This document shows, piece after piece, positions 24 to 11,887 of a stretch of 20,083 nt of DNA. The DNA comes from a virus. The translations under genes and the position numbers were made by a program. Every line of letters starts with the position of its first letter. Within the stretch, counting starts at the first letter, position 1. The DNA lies in IMG/VR virus record IMGVR_UViG_3300042905_001969, positions 1 to 20,083 of that record. One strand, written 5' to 3'. The notes below the pieces were generated by a model. That model made no database searches. It was not told where the DNA came from and saw only the letters and a list, made by a program, of their open reading frames with translations.

Positions 24-62
24 AATGCGTTTAATCGCTGTTGTGTATTTGAAATCCACTTG

Positions 63-145
63 CAGTCAGAACAGGATTCGAACCTGTAATCGGGTTTCTA
101 ACTGGTGTCCCGGCCCCAGAGCGTCTACCATTCCGCCACCTGACT
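63..145 (-). tRNA. tRNA, class II (Leu-like) body, anticodon uncertain
   Basis: An 83-nt cloverleaf on the minus strand. A seven-pair acceptor stem (AGTCAGG with TCTGACT, one G-U), spacer TG, a D-arm GCG/CGC with loop GAATGGTAGA, a perfect five-pair T-arm (ACAGG TTCGAAT CCTGT) and discriminator G are visible; CCA is not encoded. The variable region is 14 nt, which suggests a class II tRNA, and the D-arm resembles tRNA-Leu. The anticodon arm is odd: only CTGG/CCAG pairs firmly, leaving ten bases (GGCCGGGACA), or an eight-base loop after a G-A mismatch. Position 33 is not U. Candidate anticodons CGG or GGG would read proline codons, at odds with the Leu-like body. It sits 10 nt after the stop of the neighbouring gene and may be cut from the same transcript. 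Confidence 0.72.
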
Positions 146-2275: not shown

Positions 2276-2505
2276 TCGGTTAGCTTTATGATGATGATAG
2301 CCAACGCCGCAGATGCCAAGCCAACAAACGGCGCGTAGTATAGCGGTTGGTCAAAAAGTGACAAGCCAAATCCTGTCCAAAAGGCAAGGCAGGACTGGCA
2401 AGATAGTGGTTTAAAGCGACTGATGCGGTAGTACCAAGTGGGCAGTACGTTATAGCGTTCCATCGCCAATGCTGTCAAAGCCGCCAATAAAATCGTTGTA
2501 ATCAT
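2272..2505 (-). CDS. small membrane protein with SCxxC-AFW motif (DUF1360-like)
   Basis: A 77-residue membrane protein: an N-terminal span (about residues 2-18), a short loop with SCQSCLAFWTGFGL (residues 35-48), and a C-terminal span (about 55-75, APFVGLASAALAIIIIKL). The pairing of a Cys-x-x-Cys with a following aromatic W at the start of a helix resembles DUF1360-type proteins. The start used (ATG 2505) overlaps the previous gene by 56 nt; ATG 2463 would cut the overlap to 14 nt but remove most of the first span. Inner-membrane location inferred; role unknown. Confidence 0.62.
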   Translation of the reverse strand: MITTILLAALTALAMERYNVLPTWYYRISRFKPLSCQSCLAFWTGFGLSLFDQPLYYAPFVGLASAALAIIIIKLTE

Positions 2506-3010
2506 CTTGTAGTGCTTGTTTTAGTCGTTGCCTGCAAAGGTCAATCGTGTAGCAGATTGACCGATATGGAATGCCTGTGTTTCGATTGATAAGCTTCTTG
2601 TTGCCCAATTCCAGCCATAGAAGGAATAGGTTCTTGTCGTATGGATATTTCCCTGCCGCCGCCCACTTGTCCATCTCTGCTTCCGCTTTGCGATACAGGT
2701 GGTCAGGAACTGTGCTATACTTCTCATCCACCTGCTCAACTTCACCCAAAGCCACGCGCTCTTCGTTGTGCCGATACTTGCGTTGAAATGGCGATGTCTT
2801 GCCTCTGAATAAGTTAATAGCGGCGCGCACGATGTAGAACGTGAGTGCGCCTGATGCGTGTAGCTGTTCAACGCGTTCTGGTCGGTCGTAGCAGTAGATG
2901 ACCAGTTCGTGTTCGAGGTCATCGGCATAGTCGCTTGTCGCGATTTGCCTTGCCACTTGTCGGAACACTCCGTCATTGTACAGCTGGTGTATGATTTCGT
3001 TTGCATCCAC
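2450..3010 (-). CDS. sigma factor-like phage regulatory protein
   Basis: A 186-residue basic, helical protein resembling the short ECF-type sigma-like proteins of Bacteroidota phages. An N-terminal sigma region 2-like part contains YADDLEHELVIYCYDRPERV followed by LTFYIVRAAINLFR and the basic stretch SPFQRKYRHNEERV. The C-terminal third (LINRNTGIPYRSICYTIDLCRQRLKQAL) has the look of a region 4 helix-turn-helix. If correct, it would redirect host RNA polymerase to phage promoters. The similarity is by pattern, not by a firm signature, so a simple DNA-binding protein is the alternative. It overlaps the upstream DnaA-like gene by 38 nt; a TATATTTG sequence lies just upstream at 3019-3026 but is also codons of that gene. 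Confidence 0.55.
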   Translation of the reverse strand: MDANEIIHQLYNDGVFRQVARQIATSDYADDLEHELVIYCYDRPERVEQLHASGALTFYIVRAAINLFRGKTSPFQRKYRHNEERVALGEVEQVDEKYSTVPDHLYRKAEAEMDKWAAAGKYPYDKNLFLLWLELGNKKLINRNTGIPYRSICYTIDLCRQRLKQALQDDYNDFIGGFDSIGDGTL

Positions 3011-3317
3011 ATTGTGGGCAAATATAGTCAGAGTCTTCTATTGTTTGTATAAATTTAAAGCGCGAATCATTATTGTGCAACGCCCAGTCCACGACCTGCA
3101 CCCCGTGATAAACGCTCGTGTGGTTGCGGTTTAGCATTATGCCAATCGCTGTCAAGCTGTATTTGTAGTGATGCTTGCGATACAAATACCACATCAGCGC
3201 GTGCCTCGCTCGCGTTACTTCGGCCTTTCGATTGCCTGTGCAAATCTCTTCGTACGTCACGCCTGTAATGGCTTCGATGCGATTGGCAATTTCAGTGATA
3301 AAGGTTGGTGTTTTCAT
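2973..3317 (-). CDS. DnaA domain IV-like DNA-binding protein
   Basis: A 114-residue protein matching the C-terminal DNA-binding domain (domain IV) of the replication initiator DnaA, without the AAA+ ATPase part. Residues 12-28 (NRIEAITGVTYEEICTG) correspond to the first helices, residues 33-50 (EVTRARHALMWYLYRKHH) to the basic helix, and NHTSVYHGVQVVDW (65-78) to the DnaA signature in which the HTT/HTS-V-H turn contacts the DnaA box. The C-terminus adds a possible zinc knuckle, CPQCGC with a following His (residues 100-109), not present in DnaA. The leader AAACAAACCCTTAACTT before ATG 3317 matches the recurrent start element. It could mark a phage origin or interfere with host DnaA; the TGTAGTCA cluster at 5059-5284 is one possible target. 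Confidence 0.8.
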   Translation of the reverse strand: MKTPTFITEIANRIEAITGVTYEEICTGNRKAEVTRARHALMWYLYRKHHYKYSLTAIGIMLNRNHTSVYHGVQVVDWALHNNDSRFKFIQTIEDSDYICPQCGCKRNHTPAVQ

Positions 3318-3640
3318 AAGTTAAGGGTTTGTTTAAATTCTTCAAAGGTTCTGATTATGACGTAGCGGTAGCCTGCCGCTTCGATGACAGCCTGCCATTC
3401 CTTTTGAGCAGGTGACTGCCTGCCTGTTGGCGTTTTAAATTCCAAGGCGATAAGTCCAGCATCCGACAGGTACATCATATCCGCAACGCCTGCAACCACG
3501 CCCATCGCTTTCATTATCGCGCCTTCAAACTTGCCGCCACTGTTGTTGTTGACCGTGAATAAGCGGCCACGTTCCTGCGGCCTTTCATTCCAGTGGTAGC
3601 GGAAGCACTCCGCTTGTAGTTTAAATTCTTCTAATCCCAT
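3314..3640 (-). CDS. VRR-NUC domain nuclease
   Basis: A 108-residue protein that is essentially one VRR-NUC domain of the PD-(D/E)xK superfamily. The expected residues are visible: an early Glu/Gln pair (E5, Q9), the G-V-A-D turn at 51-54 with catalytic D54, IALEFKTPTG with E67 and K69, and the following glutamines Q79 and Q83 in RQSPAQKEWQ. These enzymes cleave branched or flapped DNA, like Holliday-junction resolvases. The start is ATG 3640; the frame is open further upstream but that part lies entirely inside the helicase gene and is not protein-like. It overlaps the helicase stop by 10 nt and its own stop forms an ATGA junction with the DnaA-like gene, so it belongs to the replication operon. 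Confidence 0.85.
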   Translation of the reverse strand: MGLEEFKLQAECFRYHWNERPQERGRLFTVNNNSGGKFEGAIMKAMGVVAGVADMMYLSDAGLIALEFKTPTGRQSPAQKEWQAVIEAAGYRYVIIRTFEEFKQTLNL

Positions 3641-5067
3641 TTGAATCCGTGTAGTTCTTGAAGTTTGTAGTAAAATCCTGATGCATAGCCGCAATGTCGT
3701 AGCAATTCCCTGACATCCGATTCTCGCTTGACTATGTTGTGAAGCACGAAAAATAGCTTTATTTTCTTTGCGCGAATCATCGCCGCTATTTCTGCAAGTG
3801 AGGAATCTTTTGCCAGCTGTCGCCATTGGTATGGCGTGTAGTTGTCGCGTTGCAGGATGACTTCTTCACCCATCTGCGATTCTTTGACAGGAGCGACAAA
3901 TCCGCACGAAGGGCAAATCACAGTTGAGGATGCCATCATATATCCGCACTTGCGGCACGTCTTGACAGGCGCGACCCCTTTGCGTTTCTTCTCCTTTTTT
4001 TCCAAAGACCACGGCCTTTCTACCTCCCAGCCGCCGTGTTGCTGTCGGTTATTGCCAAAGTCAAGAATGGTGAACTCGGTCTTTGTTGGCGTTACCCTGC
4101 TACCTCTTCCGCACATCTGCAAGTATAGCGGTAGCGACTTGGTTGCCCGATACAGGATAACGACTTCCACGTTCGGGTCATCGAAGCCAGTGGTGAGAAT
4201 GCCGCAGTTGCACAGGATTCCGTTGGTGCTGTTCTTAAACCACGCCAGCACTTCCAAACGCTCATCGCCTTTCATCGTGCTATCCAAATGCCTCGCAGGT
4301 AGTCCAGCACCTTGCAACTCTTCGCACAGTTCGCGACTGCTTGCAATGGATGGCGCGAATGCCAGCGCTTTCTTCCCTGCCGTGTATTTGTTGTAGTTTG
4401 TGATAACTCCGCGAAAGACCTTCTGCTTGCTGAACGCTTGCCCCATCTGATTCGCATCATAATCGCCATTGTACATCCGTACGCCTGATAAGTCAACAGG
4501 AACGCTATACATTGTCGGGATTGCAAGGTAACCAGCATCCACCAACTCGCGGATAGTCACAGGCTCTACAATGGCCGTGTAAAATTCTTTGAGTGCTTTC
4601 TGATTGCCCTCGCGATGCGGCGTAGCAGTCGCACCGATGACCGTTGTAGTTGGCTGGATGAATTTAAATAGCTTGTCAAAACTCGCCTTGTGCGCCTCGT
4701 CAATGATGACAAGGTCGATGCCTTTTAGCCAATTCGCGTATTCATCGTTTTTAAGCCTGTGGTTGAGAGATTCTACCATTGCTATATACGAGGTAGCCTC
4801 AGGCAGTTTGCGTGTCCCTTGTTTGATGTAAGAGGGCAAAATCGCGAAACGTGTAAGTGCGCCATCCGTTTGCGTCAGCAGTTCAATGCGGTCGGTGATT
4901 ATCAGCACCTTCTTTCCTTTGGTCAGTGCGGCCTGAACCATCGATGAAAACATAACGGTCTTACCTGCGCCAGTTGGTGCGCACAGGATGATGCGCCTAT
5001 TTCCTTTCCGCATAGAATCGCGTAGCAGTTCAATGGCGTGTTGTTGGTATGGTCTAAGTGTAGTCAT
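3631..5067 (-). CDS. DEAD/DEAH-box (SF2) helicase with C-terminal zinc ribbon
   Basis: A 478-residue superfamily 2 helicase. Motifs in order: LRPYQQHAI Q-motif at about residue 4, Walker A APTGAGKT (30-37), DEAH box (123-126), motif III ATATP (146-150), motif V LTTGFDDP (291-298) and motif VI QMCGRGSR (317-324) with its arginine fingers. Residues 371-388 form a CRKC...CPSC zinc ribbon, and a C-terminal extension of about 90 residues follows. The arrangement resembles phage UvsW/RecG-like or type III restriction-like helicases used in replication and branch processing. The start codons ATGACTACA contain the first copy of the TGTAGTCA repeat, so the repeat cluster runs into the gene. Partner nuclease follows directly. 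Confidence 0.92.
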   Translation of the reverse strand: MTTLRPYQQHAIELLRDSMRKGNRRIILCAPTGAGKTVMFSSMVQAALTKGKKVLIITDRIELLTQTDGALTRFAILPSYIKQGTRKLPEATSYIAMVESLNHRLKNDEYANWLKGIDLVIIDEAHKASFDKLFKFIQPTTTVIGATATPHREGNQKALKEFYTAIVEPVTIRELVDAGYLAIPTMYSVPVDLSGVRMYNGDYDANQMGQAFSKQKVFRGVITNYNKYTAGKKALAFAPSIASSRELCEELQGAGLPARHLDSTMKGDERLEVLAWFKNSTNGILCNCGILTTGFDDPNVEVVILYRATKSLPLYLQMCGRGSRVTPTKTEFTILDFGNNRQQHGGWEVERPWSLEKKEKKRKGVAPVKTCRKCGYMMASSTVICPSCGFVAPVKESQMGEEVILQRDNYTPYQWRQLAKDSSLAEIAAMIRAKKIKLFFVLHNIVKRESDVRELLRHCGYASGFYYKLQELHGFKWD

Positions 5068-5284
5068 TGTAGTCAGTTTGTAGTCAGTTTTTTGCGATCA
5101 AAGTGACTACAAAAAAAGTGCCTTGGCGATACCTGCAAGGGCGTTTTTTCGGTTTGTAGTCAGTGTAGTCACTTTTTTTTAATAAAAAGAGTATATATTA
5201 TATGTATACGAATATTGAATATTACACACGCTATAGAGTTTCAAAGTTGTTTTTGCAGTGACTACACCGACTACATTGACTACA
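5059..5284. repeat. nine-copy TGTAGTCA repeat cluster with AT-rich core (origin or operator candidate)
   Basis: Nine 8-bp units lie between helicase and primase. Same orientation on the plus strand: TGTAGTCA at 5059, 5068, 5079, 5155 and 5164. Opposite orientation: TGACTACA at 5104, 5259 and 5277, and CGACTACA at 5268. Adjacent units are mostly 9 bp apart. Units 5101-5111 and 5164-5174 extend to a perfect 11-bp inverted repeat (AAGTGACTACA). The two flanking groups point toward each other across an AT-rich core (about 5172-5258, TATATATTATATG-like). Iterons beside an AT-rich unwinding region between helicase and primase genes is a classic origin layout. A repressor operator is the alternative. 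The outermost units overlap the helicase start codon and the primase stop codon. Confidence 0.75.
5111..5143 (-). terminator. weak intrinsic terminator-like hairpin
   Basis: On the minus strand CCTTG pairs with CAAGG around a ten-base loop, followed three bases later by seven T residues. The stem is only five continuous pairs, extended to six or seven with one bulge. A T-run also follows on the plus strand, so it could act either way. It would reduce read-through from the primase gene into the helicase gene. It sits inside the repeat cluster, so the hairpin may instead belong to an origin structure. Confidence 0.35.
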
Positions 5285-7466
5285 AAAGAGGCGAATGTTG
5301 TGCTTGAAGTTCACTGACATTGATTTGCCATTTCCTTACAGGAACTGCGCAATTGCCATCCCTGCGACTTTTTTGGTTGTATCCCAACGCTCGAAGTTGC
5401 AGTCCAAGTTTGTGCAGGCTCATTGATTGGCGTGAGTTCATATCAATGTAAACTTTAATTGCACTGGTGGTCATCCAGTTTGTACAGTACTGACTTGGCG
5501 GTTCAAAGTATTTGACAATCAGCTCTCGCTCTAAACTCGGCTGTTCGTTGCCCATCGTGTTTTGGTTCAACACTGCAATGTCTTGACCACTTAAATACCA
5601 GCCTTGTGGATTGGCTCTCCATTCGTTGTATAGTTCAACTAATAGTTCGGTTTTGTCAATTGCCTCGTACTTCTCCCAGTCGATTTTTATGACATCAATT
5701 GGAATGATGCGGCGATTTCCTGTGGGGTCGTTAATGATTTCGGATTCGTTGCTCGTGCCGCATAGCACGGCCAACCTGCGCAGTTCCTCGTGTACCTTTC
5801 CATAAGGCTTGCGAATTGTAAACGTTTTACGACTTGACAGCTCCTTCAACTTTTTCGCCTCCTGCTTTGACTTTCCACCAAACTCATCATCGCATAAGAT
5901 TATTTTTTTGCACATCAGAATCTCATCATCCTTACCCGCGTCAAGTTTGGTTTCACCGTAGTAGCCTTGCAGTTCATCGGGTAGTAGTTGTCGAAAAAAG
6001 TTTGTTTTGCCAATGCCTTGCGCGCCTGTCAGCACCAAACAAATCACTGAATAGTCGTAGTGCATTGACCCGATAATGCTCAAAAGCCACTTTCGTAAAA
6101 AGGTTGCGATGTAAAAAATATCGTGGTTGTTGCTTTCGATGCAGGTAATTAACTCATCGATAAGGCCCTTCGGTCGCTTGGATGCATTTGCCGCAAAGAA
6201 GTCCACGAATGGATTATATCGCGCTGTATTTTCAGAATCAATGATATCGAACACCAGTTGCTTTTTGACCTTTGATCCGTAGGCGTGAACGGCTTGCAGG
6301 TAGATGGTGTTCAATTCGCGGTCGGTCAATGGCTCGCCTGCCTTCTCGTAGTTGCGCGTCACCTCGTTCATCTTGATGTTAAAGCCTGCGATAAAGGTTT
6401 TAAGCGCGTCCAGCATCTCATCTGCTGATGGCTTTTCTACGTCTTTTTCTTGCAATGCAAAGGCTTGGGTGACGCGCTCTTCTACGTCTTCTAAACCTTC
6501 GACTTCGGTTAGGTATGCGATTGTTTCATTCCGAGCATCATCGGTTGACTTGAATCCACCAGCGACACCAACGCGTGAGCGGTTGACCAGTGATTGCTTT
6601 TCGATGCGCTTTGTTTCAGGAGTTTGTACCTCTACCCCTGCGCACTTGGCCATATAGACAAGGGTTGCGAAGGTGATTTCTCCGCGTGTTGATTTCAGCA
6701 GTTCATCGTATTTGCTGTCGCATTTGCGGCTGTCGTACTTTGCGCTGACTGATGACAGCGCGTGAAACATTGCCCTCCCTTCGGGTGAATCTTTGTACTT
6801 ATTGATGACGGCACAGCCAACGCGATACCAGTCGTGGTAACCTTCGCATAGGTTTATGCCTCGGCTAATGATTTGCGAAAGCATATAGTTGCTGTCGCTT
6901 TCGTTACCTACATACTGCGCCCGCATTGGTGCTGATGGCTTCGGCAGGTAGTCCTTAAATCGTGGTATTTTTTTCGCGGCTTGGTACAAGTCAGGGTCAT
7001 AGCTGACGAACCGAAGGCGCGCCACGTCCTTGCAGGATTTGTCGCAGATTAGTTCGTACCTATCAGCAAGTCGCTTTTCAAGAGCAAGGTAAGCGTCAAG
7101 GTGTCGGTTCGGGTCGATGGGAAATATGGCGCAGTAGCCTTGACCGCCAACGCTTACGAACATCGCGTAGAGAGCAGGGTCTTCGCGAAGCTTGGCGATA
7201 CCTTCTTTGATGTTCGGGTTGTCATTGGCATCTATGTCGATTGCGATAAAGCCACTGTGTTCAATCAGGTGTTCTTTTTTGCGTTGCTTAAACTCGCCGC
7301 TTGTGGTGAATGCAGGTAGGTTGTCTTTTGTGCCTTTGCCTGTTCGATATGCCAGCACTTGGTCTTGCCACCTTCCATCCTTGATGTTCATCAGCAAGGT
7401 GTTGAGGTCGCTTGTCTGCGAAGGCGTTACGGCTTTGTTATTGGCAAATACGGATACTTTTATCAT
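5280..7466 (-). CDS. primase-helicase: BT4734-like primase, PriCT and VapE-type helicase domains
   Basis: A 728-residue replication protein. The N-terminus (about 1-170) is a BT4734/BF3469-like primase domain with the acidic pair in FIAIDIDAND (D77, D79) that in archaeo-eukaryotic primases binds metal. Residues about 190-265 (YHDWYRVGCAVINKY...) fit a PriCT-type helical domain. The C-terminal half is a virulence-associated E (VapE) SF3-like helicase: Walker A GAQGIGKT at about residues 480-487, a Walker B-like IILCDDEF, and the conserved GTSNESEIINDPTGNRR segment. It would prime and unwind phage DNA. The stop codon TAG lies in the last TGTAGTCA unit of the repeat cluster. Upstream is the small RNA / terminator region, leaving an unusually short leader. 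Confidence 0.9.
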   Translation of the reverse strand: MIKVSVFANNKAVTPSQTSDLNTLLMNIKDGRWQDQVLAYRTGKGTKDNLPAFTTSGEFKQRKKEHLIEHSGFIAIDIDANDNPNIKEGIAKLREDPALYAMFVSVGGQGYCAIFPIDPNRHLDAYLALEKRLADRYELICDKSCKDVARLRFVSYDPDLYQAAKKIPRFKDYLPKPSAPMRAQYVGNESDSNYMLSQIISRGINLCEGYHDWYRVGCAVINKYKDSPEGRAMFHALSSVSAKYDSRKCDSKYDELLKSTRGEITFATLVYMAKCAGVEVQTPETKRIEKQSLVNRSRVGVAGGFKSTDDARNETIAYLTEVEGLEDVEERVTQAFALQEKDVEKPSADEMLDALKTFIAGFNIKMNEVTRNYEKAGEPLTDRELNTIYLQAVHAYGSKVKKQLVFDIIDSENTARYNPFVDFFAANASKRPKGLIDELITCIESNNHDIFYIATFLRKWLLSIIGSMHYDYSVICLVLTGAQGIGKTNFFRQLLPDELQGYYGETKLDAGKDDEILMCKKIILCDDEFGGKSKQEAKKLKELSSRKTFTIRKPYGKVHEELRRLAVLCGTSNESEIINDPTGNRRIIPIDVIKIDWEKYEAIDKTELLVELYNEWRANPQGWYLSGQDIAVLNQNTMGNEQPSLERELIVKYFEPPSQYCTNWMTTSAIKVYIDMNSRQSMSLHKLGLQLRALGYNQKSRRDGNCAVPVRKWQINVSELQAQHSPLL

Positions 7467-7483: not shown

Positions 7484-7518
7484 AAAAAAAGCCCCGACAG
7501 GTAGGAGGCTGTCGGGGC
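7484..7518 (-). terminator. strong intrinsic terminator
   Basis: On the minus strand a perfect ten-pair stem GCCCCGACAG / CTGTCGGGGC closes an eight-base loop CCTCCTAC and is followed at once by seven T residues. This is the best terminator in the window. It ends the transcript coming from the early small genes and from the adjacent -7 box, only 18 nt before the primase start, so primase expression would depend on read-through, antitermination or a start site very close to the gene. Confidence 0.88.
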
Positions 7519-7578
7519 AAGCCAAAGGTAGCGGCTCGTCTTCCGTTGATACCGTTCTCCTACAAACAGCATCAACTC
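7484..7578 (-). ncRNA. candidate small RNA with two loop-complementary hairpins
   Basis: A compact unit in the 136-nt gap before the primase gene. A -7 box at 7591-7584 predicts a start near 7578. Hairpin 1 (7576-7545) has eleven pairs, GTTGATGCTGT with ACGGTATCAAC including two G-U, and shows GTAGGAG in its ten-base loop. A linker of 26 nt carries a possible AGCC/GGCT stem. Hairpin 2 (7518-7491) is the terminator stem, with CTCCTAC in its loop, the exact seven-base complement of the first loop. The RNA would be about 95 nt and could form a kissing-loop fold or dimerise. It contains no open reading frame of note. Alternatives: a regulated leader of the primase gene, or chance complementarity. 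Confidence 0.6.
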
Positions 7579-7583
7579 TGTCA

Positions 7584-7591
7584 CAAATATA
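7584..7591 (-). promoter_or_regulatory. putative -7 promoter box (TATATTTG) of the small RNA
   Basis: Exact TAnnTTTG match on the minus strand, positioned so that transcription would begin at the foot of hairpin 1 of the small RNA candidate. The expected -33 TTTG is missing: the upstream sequence lies in the end of the gene at 7603 and shows no match. Support therefore comes from the box and its exact placement. Confidence 0.45.
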
Positions 7592-7602
7592 GAAATTATT
7601 CG

Positions 7603-7809
7603 TTACGATTCGTCCTCTCTATACCTTTCCTCAGCAATAGTGTTCATTGCCTTGTAGCAGGTTTTTTCCGTGAACGTTTGCCCCACCATCAAGCCAACAA
7701 ACGCTTCGATGATTTCGGTAGCCGTGTGTTCGTTTCCTTCCATTTCGGTGGAACAAACGCGCCCATCAATTTGCAGGCTAATCTTGGTACACTGGTTAAA
7801 ATGGGTCAT
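7603..7809 (-). CDS. hypothetical protein, 68 aa
   Basis: A 68-residue protein starting MTHFNQCTKISLQIDGRVCS. The first half is predicted beta strand, the second half helical (IIEAFVGLMVGQTFTEKTCYKAMNTIAEER). ATG 7809 is preferred over an upstream codon at 7875, which would place 22 low-complexity Thr/Ser/Lys residues inside the preceding gene. The start overlaps that gene's end by 14 nt. No family recognised. It is the last gene before the small RNA and terminator. Confidence 0.68.
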   Translation of the reverse strand: MTHFNQCTKISLQIDGRVCSTEMEGNEHTATEIIEAFVGLMVGQTFTEKTCYKAMNTIAEERYREDES

Positions 7810-8029
7810 TGCCTTGGTCGTATTGGTTGTAGGTGTTAGCGACTGGTGCTTGCTTCGGCTGGACGCTTCCTGCAAGGAATTCGCCCTTCGCTCCGTTCTT
7901 GACCCACAGGCTTACGCTGTATTCCTGTCCGTTCAGTAGCAGACTGCCCTTCCATCGCGGAGCGTTGGCGTTGGCTGATTGGTTGGTGAACACGCTGATG
8001 TCACCGTCTTTTTTTTGGTAATTGCTCAT
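7796..8029 (-). CDS. small beta-rich phage protein (DUF736-like)
   Basis: A 77-residue protein from ATG 8029: a polar N-terminus, then WKGSLLLNGQEYSVSLWVKNGAKGEFLAGSV, alternating strands typical of the short phage proteins related to DUF736, and a disordered Gln/Asn/Pro-rich tail ending QYDQGNDPF. The strand pattern with Trp residues is compatible with an OB-like or nucleic-acid-binding fold, but that is inference. The leader TTAAACCAAACCAAATT immediately precedes ATG and at the same time encodes the last residues (NQTKL) of the upstream gene, with an ATGA junction. Confidence 0.7.
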   Translation of the reverse strand: MSNYQKKDGDISVFTNQSANANAPRWKGSLLLNGQEYSVSLWVKNGAKGEFLAGSVQPKQAPVANTYNQYDQGNDPF

Positions 8030-8757: not shown

Positions 8758-8895
8758 TTAGTTTAATATCGCTATAAAAATCTGCTTAATGAGGTAAATT
8801 AGCATCGCCTGTACAAGCAGCACGCCCAATGCAATTGTTGTATAAAGCACAAAAGTTGGTAATGCTTCAATTAAGTCTTTTAATTTATTTTTCAT
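8758..8895 (-). CDS. small single-span membrane protein, 45 aa
   Basis: A 45-residue frame that fills the gap between two larger genes. ATG 8895 overlaps the stop of the alanine-rich gene (ATGA) and the stop TAA at 8758-8760 begins the leader of the next gene. The product starts MKNKLKDLIEALPTFVLY and has one clear membrane helix from about residue 14 to 42, preceded by a basic, amphipathic N-terminus, so an inner-membrane protein with its N-terminus in the cytoplasm is expected. The start is preceded by ATAAACCCAACCCAACT. Role unknown. Confidence 0.68.
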   Translation of the reverse strand: MKNKLKDLIEALPTFVLYTTIALGVLLVQAMLIYLIKQIFIAILN

Positions 8896-9491
8896 AGTTG
8901 GGTTGGGTTTATAATTGAATTAACTTTTTGGATGATTAGGTCGCCGATGTATTGGCGGCAAATGTCAGCTGTTTGCAATCGATTTGCATCACGGGCAGCA
9001 GTATCGGCATCGGCATCGTAATAGGCATCGGCAGCGGCAGCGTAAATGGCATCGGCAGCAGTATCGGCAGCGTCAGCGTAAGTGGCATCGGCAGCGTAAT
9101 AGGCAGCGGCAGCGGCAGCGTAATAGGCAGCGGCACGGGCAGAGGCAGCGGCACGGGCAGAGGCAGCGGAATAGGCACGGGCAGAGGCAGCGGCATCGGC
9201 ACGGGCAGCATCTAACTCCTCACGTGTTGCCGTGCCTTCGCCAAAAGCAATCGCGGTGTCAACTGCTTTAAGGCTTCTACCGTCATTCATCAAGTGCCTA
9301 ACGGTGTTGGCGCAGTGCCCTTTTGCAAGGGTTAATGGTTGCAGTCCGATGTCGCATTTATATGCGAGCCACAGCAACCAATCGCCGCGGTGGCAGGTAG
9401 CAACAACCTCTTCGATTGTTTTACTTTCTGCCCACTCAATTGCGTTGGAGCAGGCGTTAACAATTTTTTTTAGATATTCTGTAAATGTCAT
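8892..9491 (-). CDS. alanine-rich repeat protein, copy 1 (putative immunity-like family)
   Basis: A 199-residue protein in two parts. Residues 1-93 form a globular helical domain with TCHRGDWLLWLAYKCDIG, then LTLAKGHCANTVRHLM, then AVDTAIAFGEGTATREEL. Residues 94-169 are more than half alanine with Tyr, Asp, Ser and Arg, a long predicted helix or coiled rod; the C-terminus (170-199) is again ordinary. This layout resembles proteins annotated as putative immunity proteins (Imm-5-like), a label I give only tentatively. The rod is encoded by a hexamer-like repeat (GCC NNT). A second copy lies at 11369-11887. The last codons (NPTQL) are the leader of the next gene. Start ATG 9491 follows TTTAACCCAATCCAATT. 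Confidence 0.82.
   Translation of the reverse strand: MTFTEYLKKIVNACSNAIEWAESKTIEEVVATCHRGDWLLWLAYKCDIGLQPLTLAKGHCANTVRHLMNDGRSLKAVDTAIAFGEGTATREELDAARADAAASARAYSAASARAAASARAAAYYAAAAAAYYAADATYADAADTAADAIYAAAADAYYDADADTAARDANRLQTADICRQYIGDLIIQKVNSIINPTQL
8992..9212. repeat. hexanucleotide-periodic coding repeat (GCC NNT)
   Basis: On the minus strand, alternate codons are almost all GCC and the codons between them mostly end in T (GCT, TCT, CGT, GAT, TAT), giving a six-base period over about 220 bp. Units such as GCCGCTGCCTCTGCCCGT recur. Changes in unit number keep the frame, so the alanine-rich rod can lengthen or shorten by slippage or unequal recombination; the second gene copy is shorter by 27 residues in total. 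Confidence 0.8.
9074..9279. repeat. 206-bp exact direct repeat, copy 1
   Basis: Identical base for base to 11473-11678, a displacement of 2399 bp in the same orientation. It covers part of the alanine-rich segment and the conserved codons just before it. Flanking parts of both genes are similar but carry many substitutions, so the identity ends sharply. This suggests recent gene conversion or recombination between two older duplicates, and would allow deletion of the genes between. Confidence 0.9.
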
Positions 9492-10872: not shown

Positions 10873-11372
10873 TTTTTGTTGGATTTAAGTTGTGATTTAA
10901 CGTATTCAATGCCTTTGGAAAACTTGGCCGCATCCCAGTGTGGTTGCGGAAGTAACCGCGCCATCTCGGCAGGGTCTAACGCTTCGATCAGGATGCAGTA
11001 ATCGGTGCGCAGTTTCTCCAGTTCGTTCTCCTTCGCCAGCGCAAACTGCATCTCATCAGCGGTGGCGATGGCATCCTTCAATCCGATTCCGAAGTTGCCG
11101 AGCGCACGCCCCCACGCACTGCTCTCGCAGTTCTCCACGTAGGAAGTTTTGTTGATGTTTGAACTGGTGCGGTCTTCCTGTGCCAGTCCTGTCGCAACGA
11201 TGCGGCCAGTTGGGTCGGTGATGATAGCGTTCAGCACTACGAAGTCGGGTGTCAATTGCACCACTTCGGTAGTCAGGCAATGGTCGGCGAAGTTCTCGCG
11301 GAAATACTTGATTCTTTCCACGACTTCCACATAAGGCTTGCCCTTGATGTTGATTGTTTTTAGGTTGGTCAT
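10869..11372 (-). CDS. Rad52/ERF-like single-strand annealing protein
   Basis: A 167-residue protein of the phage annealing-protein group related to Rad52/DdrA and ERF. Residues 13-70 (YVEVVERIKYFRENFADHCL..., VVLNAIITDPTGRIVATG) form the beta-beta-alpha core, and SYVENCESSAWGRALGNFGI (77-96) is the strongly conserved segment of this family. After about residue 110 a charged helical tail follows. Such proteins anneal complementary strands during recombination-dependent replication and repair. The leader ACTAAACCCTTAAATCA precedes ATG 11372 and is shared, base for base, with the leader of the alanine-rich gene at 11887; it also encodes that gene's last residues. Confidence 0.8.
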   Translation of the reverse strand: MTNLKTINIKGKPYVEVVERIKYFRENFADHCLTTEVVQLTPDFVVLNAIITDPTGRIVATGLAQEDRTSSNINKTSYVENCESSAWGRALGNFGIGLKDAIATADEMQFALAKENELEKLRTDYCILIEALDPAEMARLLPQPHWDAAKFSKGIEYVKSQLKSNKK

Positions 11373-11887
11373 TGATTTAAGGGTTTAGTAATTGAATTAA
11401 CTTTTTGGATGATAAGGTCGCCAATGTACTTTCGGCAAATGTCAGCTGTTTGCAATCGATTTTCGATAGCGGCAGCGTAAGTGGCATCGGCAGCGTAATA
11501 GGCAGCGGCAGCGGCAGCGTAATAGGCAGCGGCACGGGCAGAGGCAGCGGCACGGGCAGAGGCAGCGGAATAGGCACGGGCAGAGGCAGCGGCATCGGCA
11601 CGGGCAGCATCTAACTCCTCACGTGTTGCCGTGCCTTCGCCAAAAGCAATCGCGGTGTCAACTGCTTTAAGGCTTCTATCGTCATCCATCAAGTGCCTAA
11701 CGGTGTTGGCGCAGTGCGCTTTTGCAAGTGTAAGCGGTTGCAGTCCAATATCGCATTTGGATGCGAGCCACAACAACCAATCGCCGCGGTGGCAGGTAGC
11801 GACAACCTCTTCGACTGTTTTACTTTCTGCCCACTCAATTGCGTTGGAGCAGGCGTTAATGGATTTTAAATATTCTGTAAATGTCAT
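11369..11887 (-). CDS. alanine-rich repeat protein, copy 2 (putative immunity-like family)
   Basis: A 172-residue paralogue of the protein at 8892-9491. The N-terminal domain aligns almost residue for residue (MTFTEYLKSINACSNAIEWA..., TCHRGDWLLWLASKCDIG, GEGTATREELDAARADAA). The alanine-rich rod is shorter by 26 residues, with one further residue lost near the N-terminus, and the C-terminal part (NRLQTADICRKYIGDLIIQK) is kept. A 206-bp core is identical in DNA to copy 1, whereas the rest differs by scattered substitutions. Keeping two copies so close together suggests either dosage or separate partners. The tentative immunity label is the same as for copy 1. ATGA junctions at both ends. Confidence 0.82.
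   Translation of the reverse strand: MTFTEYLKSINACSNAIEWAESKTVEEVVATCHRGDWLLWLASKCDIGLQPLTLAKAHCANTVRHLMDDDRSLKAVDTAIAFGEGTATREELDAARADAAASARAYSAASARAAASARAAAYYAAAAAAYYAADATYAAAIENRLQTADICRKYIGDLIIQKVNSITKPLNQ
11473..11678. repeat. 206-bp exact direct repeat, copy 2
   Basis: Second copy of the exact repeat at 9074-9279, same orientation. It lies in the matching part of the paralogous gene, including the shared hexamer-periodic segment. Confidence 0.9.

Follow-up and report, generated by a model that had tools for sequence, protein, structure and literature searches.

The locus examined here raises the question of what occupies the 136-nt gap between a VapE-type primase/helicase gene and the small gene upstream of it, and of what the occupant may do to the operon behind it. 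The window, meaning the whole stretch of DNA that was analysed, is a 20,083-base virus record, and the element housed in this gap lies on the minus strand, from 7591 to 7484. It begins with a -7 promoter box, TATATTTG (7584..7591), recognised by motif as having the TAnnTTTG form of Bacteroidota sigma-A. Folding places hairpin 1 at 7545..7576, with a 12-pair stem and an 8-nt loop, UGUAGGAG (or 13 pairs and a 6-nt loop in the MFE fold); a weak middle hairpin 2 at about 7519..7537, with conserved GAGCC..GGCUU, whose core AGCC..GGC is kept in 30 aligned relatives; and a terminator hairpin (hairpin 3) at 7491..7518, in which 7518-7509 form 10 pairs with 7500-7491 around the 8-nt loop CCUCCUAC. A T7 tract (7484..7490) completes the intrinsic terminator. 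The loop of hairpin 1 carries GUAGGAG (kissing segment 1, 7557..7563) and that of the terminator CUCCUAC (kissing segment 2, 7501..7507), which are exact complements; two random 8-nt loops would share a 7-nt Watson-Crick match with p = 0.00025. A first-pass annotation had described the box, two hairpins, the exactly complementary loops and the seven T, all of which are present where it placed them; its 11 pairs for the stem of hairpin 1 have to be corrected to 12 (13 in the MFE fold), and it did not mention hairpin 2.

In Flavobacterium the sigma-A consensus is TAnnTTTG, and in F. psychrophilum this box lies at -12 to -5 (PMC9723704). At that spacing we infer a transcription start at about 7579, so that the RNA would begin practically with hairpin 1. 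Promoter spacing and terminator, together with the fold and the covariance model R1, predict an RNA of ~96 nt (7484..7579, minus strand), a leader or small RNA, and so agree with the self-contained unit of about 95 nt proposed earlier. The RNA folds at -44.3 kcal/mol (z = -4.8), with equally stable folds in none of 200 shuffles, and R1 scores 111 bits at the window element. The full-length RNA was found by this model in a single copy per phage genome in the records searched; an apparent second copy in one genome (G004) was traced to the duplicated end of a circular contig, and short opposite-strand matches are the terminator read in reverse. No Rfam family matches the element, the sole match in the window being a tRNA, and a relaxed threshold added only sub-threshold chance matches to unrelated families, none of them on the element. 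A tRNA-Pro (GGG) gene marks the window's left end (62-145, minus strand). We regard the structure of the RNA unit as firm.

Whether the two loops pair was addressed with related phages. Family 1, to which the window element belongs, comprises ~40 distinct sequences from pattern and protein scans. Among the 43 pattern matches, two (L163 and L195) were not this RNA and one (L164) was clipped at a contig end. The pattern scans demanded TATATTTGT, AGAGT and ACGNAAG, or a core piece, so that these letters are necessarily conserved among their matches; relatives selected by protein (L017-L028 and L082-L111) carry nearly identical letters without that requirement, and TATATTTGT is invariant in them. 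In the 30-row alignment used for covariation (A3), 99.5% of 206 cells of the loop-loop helix are standard pairs, six of its seven pairs show changes on both sides, and the covariation score is 0.663 against 0.149 +/- 0.028 in shuffles, none of 500 reaching it, with cells counting sequences rather than events, such that kinship inflates the pairing and covariation figures. When the partner segment was slid along, the score fell to 0.105 or less. In the hairpin 1 stem, 9 of 12 pairs changed on both sides among the relatives, and in the terminator stem all cells are paired and 7 of 10 pairs are invariant.

Nine loop pairs occur in family 1: GUAGGAG/CUCCUAC, GUAGCAG/CUGCUAC, AUACCAG/CUGGUAU, GUGCCAG/CUGGUAC, GUGGUG/CACCAC, UUCGCAG/CUGCGAA, UUCGCAC/GUGCGAA, GUCGAAG/CUUCGAC and GUCGUAG/CUACGAC. 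A single compensated pair separates types T6 and T9, T1 and T2, and T7 and T8, and one relative (L089), changed on one side only, stands midway between two loop types. Nine loop types would need many separate compensated changes, despite the inflation by kinship. In a cross-type matrix, 7-mers of the same type pair best or equal best, and RNAduplex gave a mean of -8.6 kcal/mol for own pairs and -1.7 kcal/mol for cross pairs; computed cross-pairing is weak for most types, with T3/T5 and T6/T9 as exceptions. Because both loops change together in many relatives, comparative analysis shows that the hairpin 1 loop and the terminator loop pair. The covariation test in stems and loops that the first-pass annotation had proposed was thus strongly positive, and the resemblance that it saw to an anti-Shine-Dalgarno sequence is not borne out, CCUCC being absent from eight of the nine loop types.

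The same architecture was found outside family 1. One locus, L127, gave a weak covariance-model match (16.7 bits, E 0.25), with the same plan in a different sequence. A scanner was set to find TANNTTTG, a hairpin loop with at least 7 nt exactly complementary to a segment in the following terminator, and a T tract. In a first set of loci, mostly chosen by protein (0.84 Mb, both strands), it returned 13 elements, the L115 element being counted twice through a second promoter reading, against 1 with direct and 1 with reversed words. All loci together gave 46 distinct matches, and the controls with direct and reversed words 2 and 1; as patterns of these RNAs had guided part of the choice of loci, 46 is no unbiased rate. 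Family 2 (L124, L137, L141, L145, L153 and L214-L227) is built on a backbone of its own, with five loop pairs. Covariation of its loop-loop helix is 0.529 against 0.160 in shuffles, with counts of pairs and pair types not above shuffles. This family was located by a scan that did not require the -7 box, and its box mostly retains TA and TTTG with variable nn, L216 and L218 deviating. Families 3 (L115 and L117), 4 (L116) and 5 (L127) have a single loop pair each, and a pattern scan for family 3 returned just three contigs with one loop type.

A candidate with the same plan is also present in a cultured muminvirus, the Flavobacterium phage mumin6-1 (MN812220.1, 11666-11760, plus strand; L230), with its box, TACATTTG, at 11666-11673. 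It is identical in 34 records of the phage group infecting strains LMO6/LMO9, and hence offers no covariation. A linker like AAAACATT between hairpin 1 and the terminator is common to families 2 and 3 and the mumin candidate. Two more scanner matches in mumin6-1, at 1339 (plus) and 22968 (minus), were judged spurious, being AT-rich and within a gene. The scanner found no element in the complete cultured phages P12024L, phi46:1, BT23 and 6H, nor in the portions searched of several further phages, most of them from the Bacteroides group. One scan for spread into bacterial genomes gave a single match, in Caulobacter, which was taken as chance. A common plan is present in at least four phage groups of unrelated sequence: a -7 box, a 5' hairpin, a complementary segment in the terminator, and a start codon 3-36 nt further on.

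The position of the element suggests what it may do. In all elements read far enough, an ATG follows the T tract by 3-36 nt, and in the window the primase ATG lies 17 nt past it. An intrinsic terminator sits between the promoter and the first ORF of the operon, both signals being recognised by their sequence, a placement typical of an attenuator. With such short spacing there is scant room for a separate promoter between terminator and start codon, which leads us to prefer a leader/attenuator reading, and since expression of the operon would then need read-through, an attenuator with a stable small RNA as its product. A terminator controlling the primase operon had been ranked in the first-pass annotation as the main alternative to its leading idea; the constant position ahead of the operon's first ATG now favours it over that lead. 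Several observations count against the attenuator model: a search of the leader for a base-paired antiterminator brought up only partial matches of 7-8 pairs, none of them a convincing rival to a terminator arm; a clear -33 TTG box is absent from its usual place upstream of the -7 box; and the element is missing from several cultured Bacteroidota phages. On balance, a leader/attenuator role is likely.

The operon behind the RNA is mostly a replication module in family 1. In the window its first gene encodes the VapE-type primase/helicase (5280..7466, minus strand; Pfam VapE-like, BT4734-like_N and PriCT_2) and its second an SF2 (ResIII) helicase (3631..5067, minus strand). Across the family the cargo is a swappable module, either VapE primase with SF2 helicase (two lineages) or DUF6291/DUF7833 with DnaB, sometimes headed by an MT-A70 or N6/N4 methyltransferase or a DUF3223 gene. 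The small upstream gene (7603..7875, same direction, from the ORF list) has a relative that also precedes the RNA in four loci with the other module type (L036, L042, L045 and L064). Locus L200 (contig 3300042507_003448, type T6) is an exception, in which the first ATG opens an ORF of 60 aa or more that does not resemble the customary replication genes. Families 2-5 often have an SF2 helicase directly behind the RNA, with other or uncharacterised genes found there as well. One primase stands behind T1, T3 and T4 and another behind T6, T7 and T8; a link between loop type and payload was thus ruled out, as the same payload occurs with several types.

The genes of the window resemble those of Bacteroidota phages, and relatives of the primase occur in Nonlabens and Cellulophaga phages. 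The RNA appears at both ends of contig 3300035703_000285 (L210/L211), the genome of which is probably a closed circle of ~33.3 kb. Further along the minus strand, after VRR-NUC-like and DnaA-like genes, the ORF at 2450-3010 encodes a possible phage sigma-like factor with no PHROGs match; a sigma-70 region 2 protein lies near the corresponding position in Nonlabens phage P12024L. A small protein with a DnaA C-terminal DNA-binding domain (2973-3317, minus strand) has a counterpart in the circular relative. The ORFs at 8892-9491 and 11369-11887 (both minus strand) are paralogous, starting with MTFTEYLK and ending in long Ala-rich repeat tails of unequal length.

The reading to be weighed most seriously against ours is that the loops kiss only within one molecule, compacting the RNA or tuning the terminator, and are free to drift as long as they match, without any recognition in trans. 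Intramolecular kissing alone is the strongest of the rivals, and we consider it possible, if rather unlikely. Because both loops lie on one RNA, it can by itself account for the covariation, and it sits easily with the occurrence of a candidate in phages described as virulent and with a 5' hairpin that, in most of the elements looked at, starts near the predicted transcription start, as is typical of stable RNAs. What it fits less well is the unequal turnover of the parts. Relatives retain the frame of the RNA but exchange both loops together with the first stem: between types, ~41-43% of sites differ in the kissing segments and 53% in the hairpin 1 stem, against 6% in the terminator stem. The window and L003 have a different hairpin 1 and two different loops, although their primases are 96% and their upstream DNA 92.6% alike. 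The geometry would also be tight with hairpin 2 folded, a stack of ~29 pairs having to be bridged, by a rough estimate, by 7 nt plus hairpin 2. Such rapid turnover between near-identical phages, as for the loops of ColE1, suggests selection for recognition of the own type, which would act in trans.

We therefore prefer to read the element as a replication-operon leader and small-RNA gene in one, an attenuator with an allele-specific kissing pair, a reading that, taken whole, we hold to be evenly poised. Under this attenuator model, the majority of transcripts would end at 7484, leaving a stable RNA of ~96 nt, and the operon would be expressed by read-through of the terminator. The 5' loop, being first to emerge, would be captured by its own terminator loop or, at high levels of the small RNA, by the terminator loop of a different molecule, and the partner bound would set the level of termination. 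The operon would thereby limit itself in a dosage-dependent way. An established phage may in addition shut down a newly arriving phage that carries its own loop type, and this would account for the favouring of new loop pairs. Type specificity in trans, suggested by the loop turnover and by analogy with P4 immunity and plasmid copy control, is the more doubtful part, and we propose it tentatively. Lysogenic immunity proper is unlikely, since muminviruses were described as virulent (PMC7077304) and the 20 ORFs that were scanned in the circular 33.3-kb relative include no integrase or repressor.

According to a second alternative, the RNA is a stand-alone regulatory or assembly RNA, forming a dimer or ring through its loops; its site would be merely convenient, the terminator constitutive, and read-through provided by a phage antitermination factor. 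The pRNA of phi29 is a phage RNA with complementary loops, variable in sequence between relatives, and in this respect our element is like it. The unit is self-contained from promoter to terminator, two complementary loops permit a closed dimer, and phage RNAs joined through kissing loops exist in ROOL and GOLLD (PMC12286853). Those RNAs are large and ornate, hundreds of nt long with multiple pseudoknots, and lie near tRNA islands, whereas the phage leader RNA has a size of just ~96 nt and three simple hairpins. Every element found lies strictly 3-36 nt ahead of a start codon, and family 1 adjoins replication rather than packaging genes. The packaging RNA of the phi29 type that was suggested in the first-pass annotation is not supported, given these neighbours and the lack of an Rfam match, and unlike pRNA the element closes with a terminator ahead of an ORF. 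We consider a stand-alone RNA improbable. That an ordinary intergenic terminator, present by its letters, acquired complementary loops by chance is hardly credible, given a likelihood of ~0.00025 for a single sequence, covariation in two unrelated families and the scanner controls.

Several known systems share parts of the plan. The CI RNA of P4 derives from the leader of a replication operon and pairs with segments of the same transcript, prematurely stopping transcription of replication genes (PMC4825925). Like P4 CI and the C4 RNA of P1/P7, our element has same-strand complementary segments upstream of replication genes, but it matches neither P4 CI nor C4 (Rfam RF01695) in sequence or in Rfam. 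Its complementary segment sits within the loop of its own terminator rather than in seqA/seqC flanking the RNA as in P4, and, unlike P4, the phages concerned are described as virulent, as for the muminviruses, or showed no integrase among the ORFs scanned, as for the circular relative. In plasmid copy control, loop changes in ColE1 RNAI/RNAII make new compatibility types (PMC9458437), and attenuation follows loop-loop contact in pT181 (PMC4878617). As in these plasmids, the kissing loops of the phage RNA diversify by matched changes; in the plasmids the partner is an antisense RNA of the opposite strand, whereas here both loops lie on one minus-strand transcript, and in contrast to the pT181 attenuator the phage leader yielded no antiterminator helix.

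A search of the literature, largely outside subscription journals, returned no description of such an element, and as no Rfam family was found, the RNAs apparently form an undescribed class of phage RNA. Their loop-loop covariation is unusually clean and repeated, and the nine natural loop pairs of family 1, on two related backbones, constitute a ready series of RNA pairing parts. At its widest, the finding may mean that Bacteroidota phages carry widespread RNA "compatibility" genes, in which one self-complementary pair in an early-operon attenuator would act in trans on its own type, diversify in a frequency-dependent manner and control superinfection without lysogeny; we offer this as a speculation that is probably too broad. 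It poses a testable question: whether an RNA lock-and-key may limit a phage's own replication, and exclude its own type, in phages without lysogeny.
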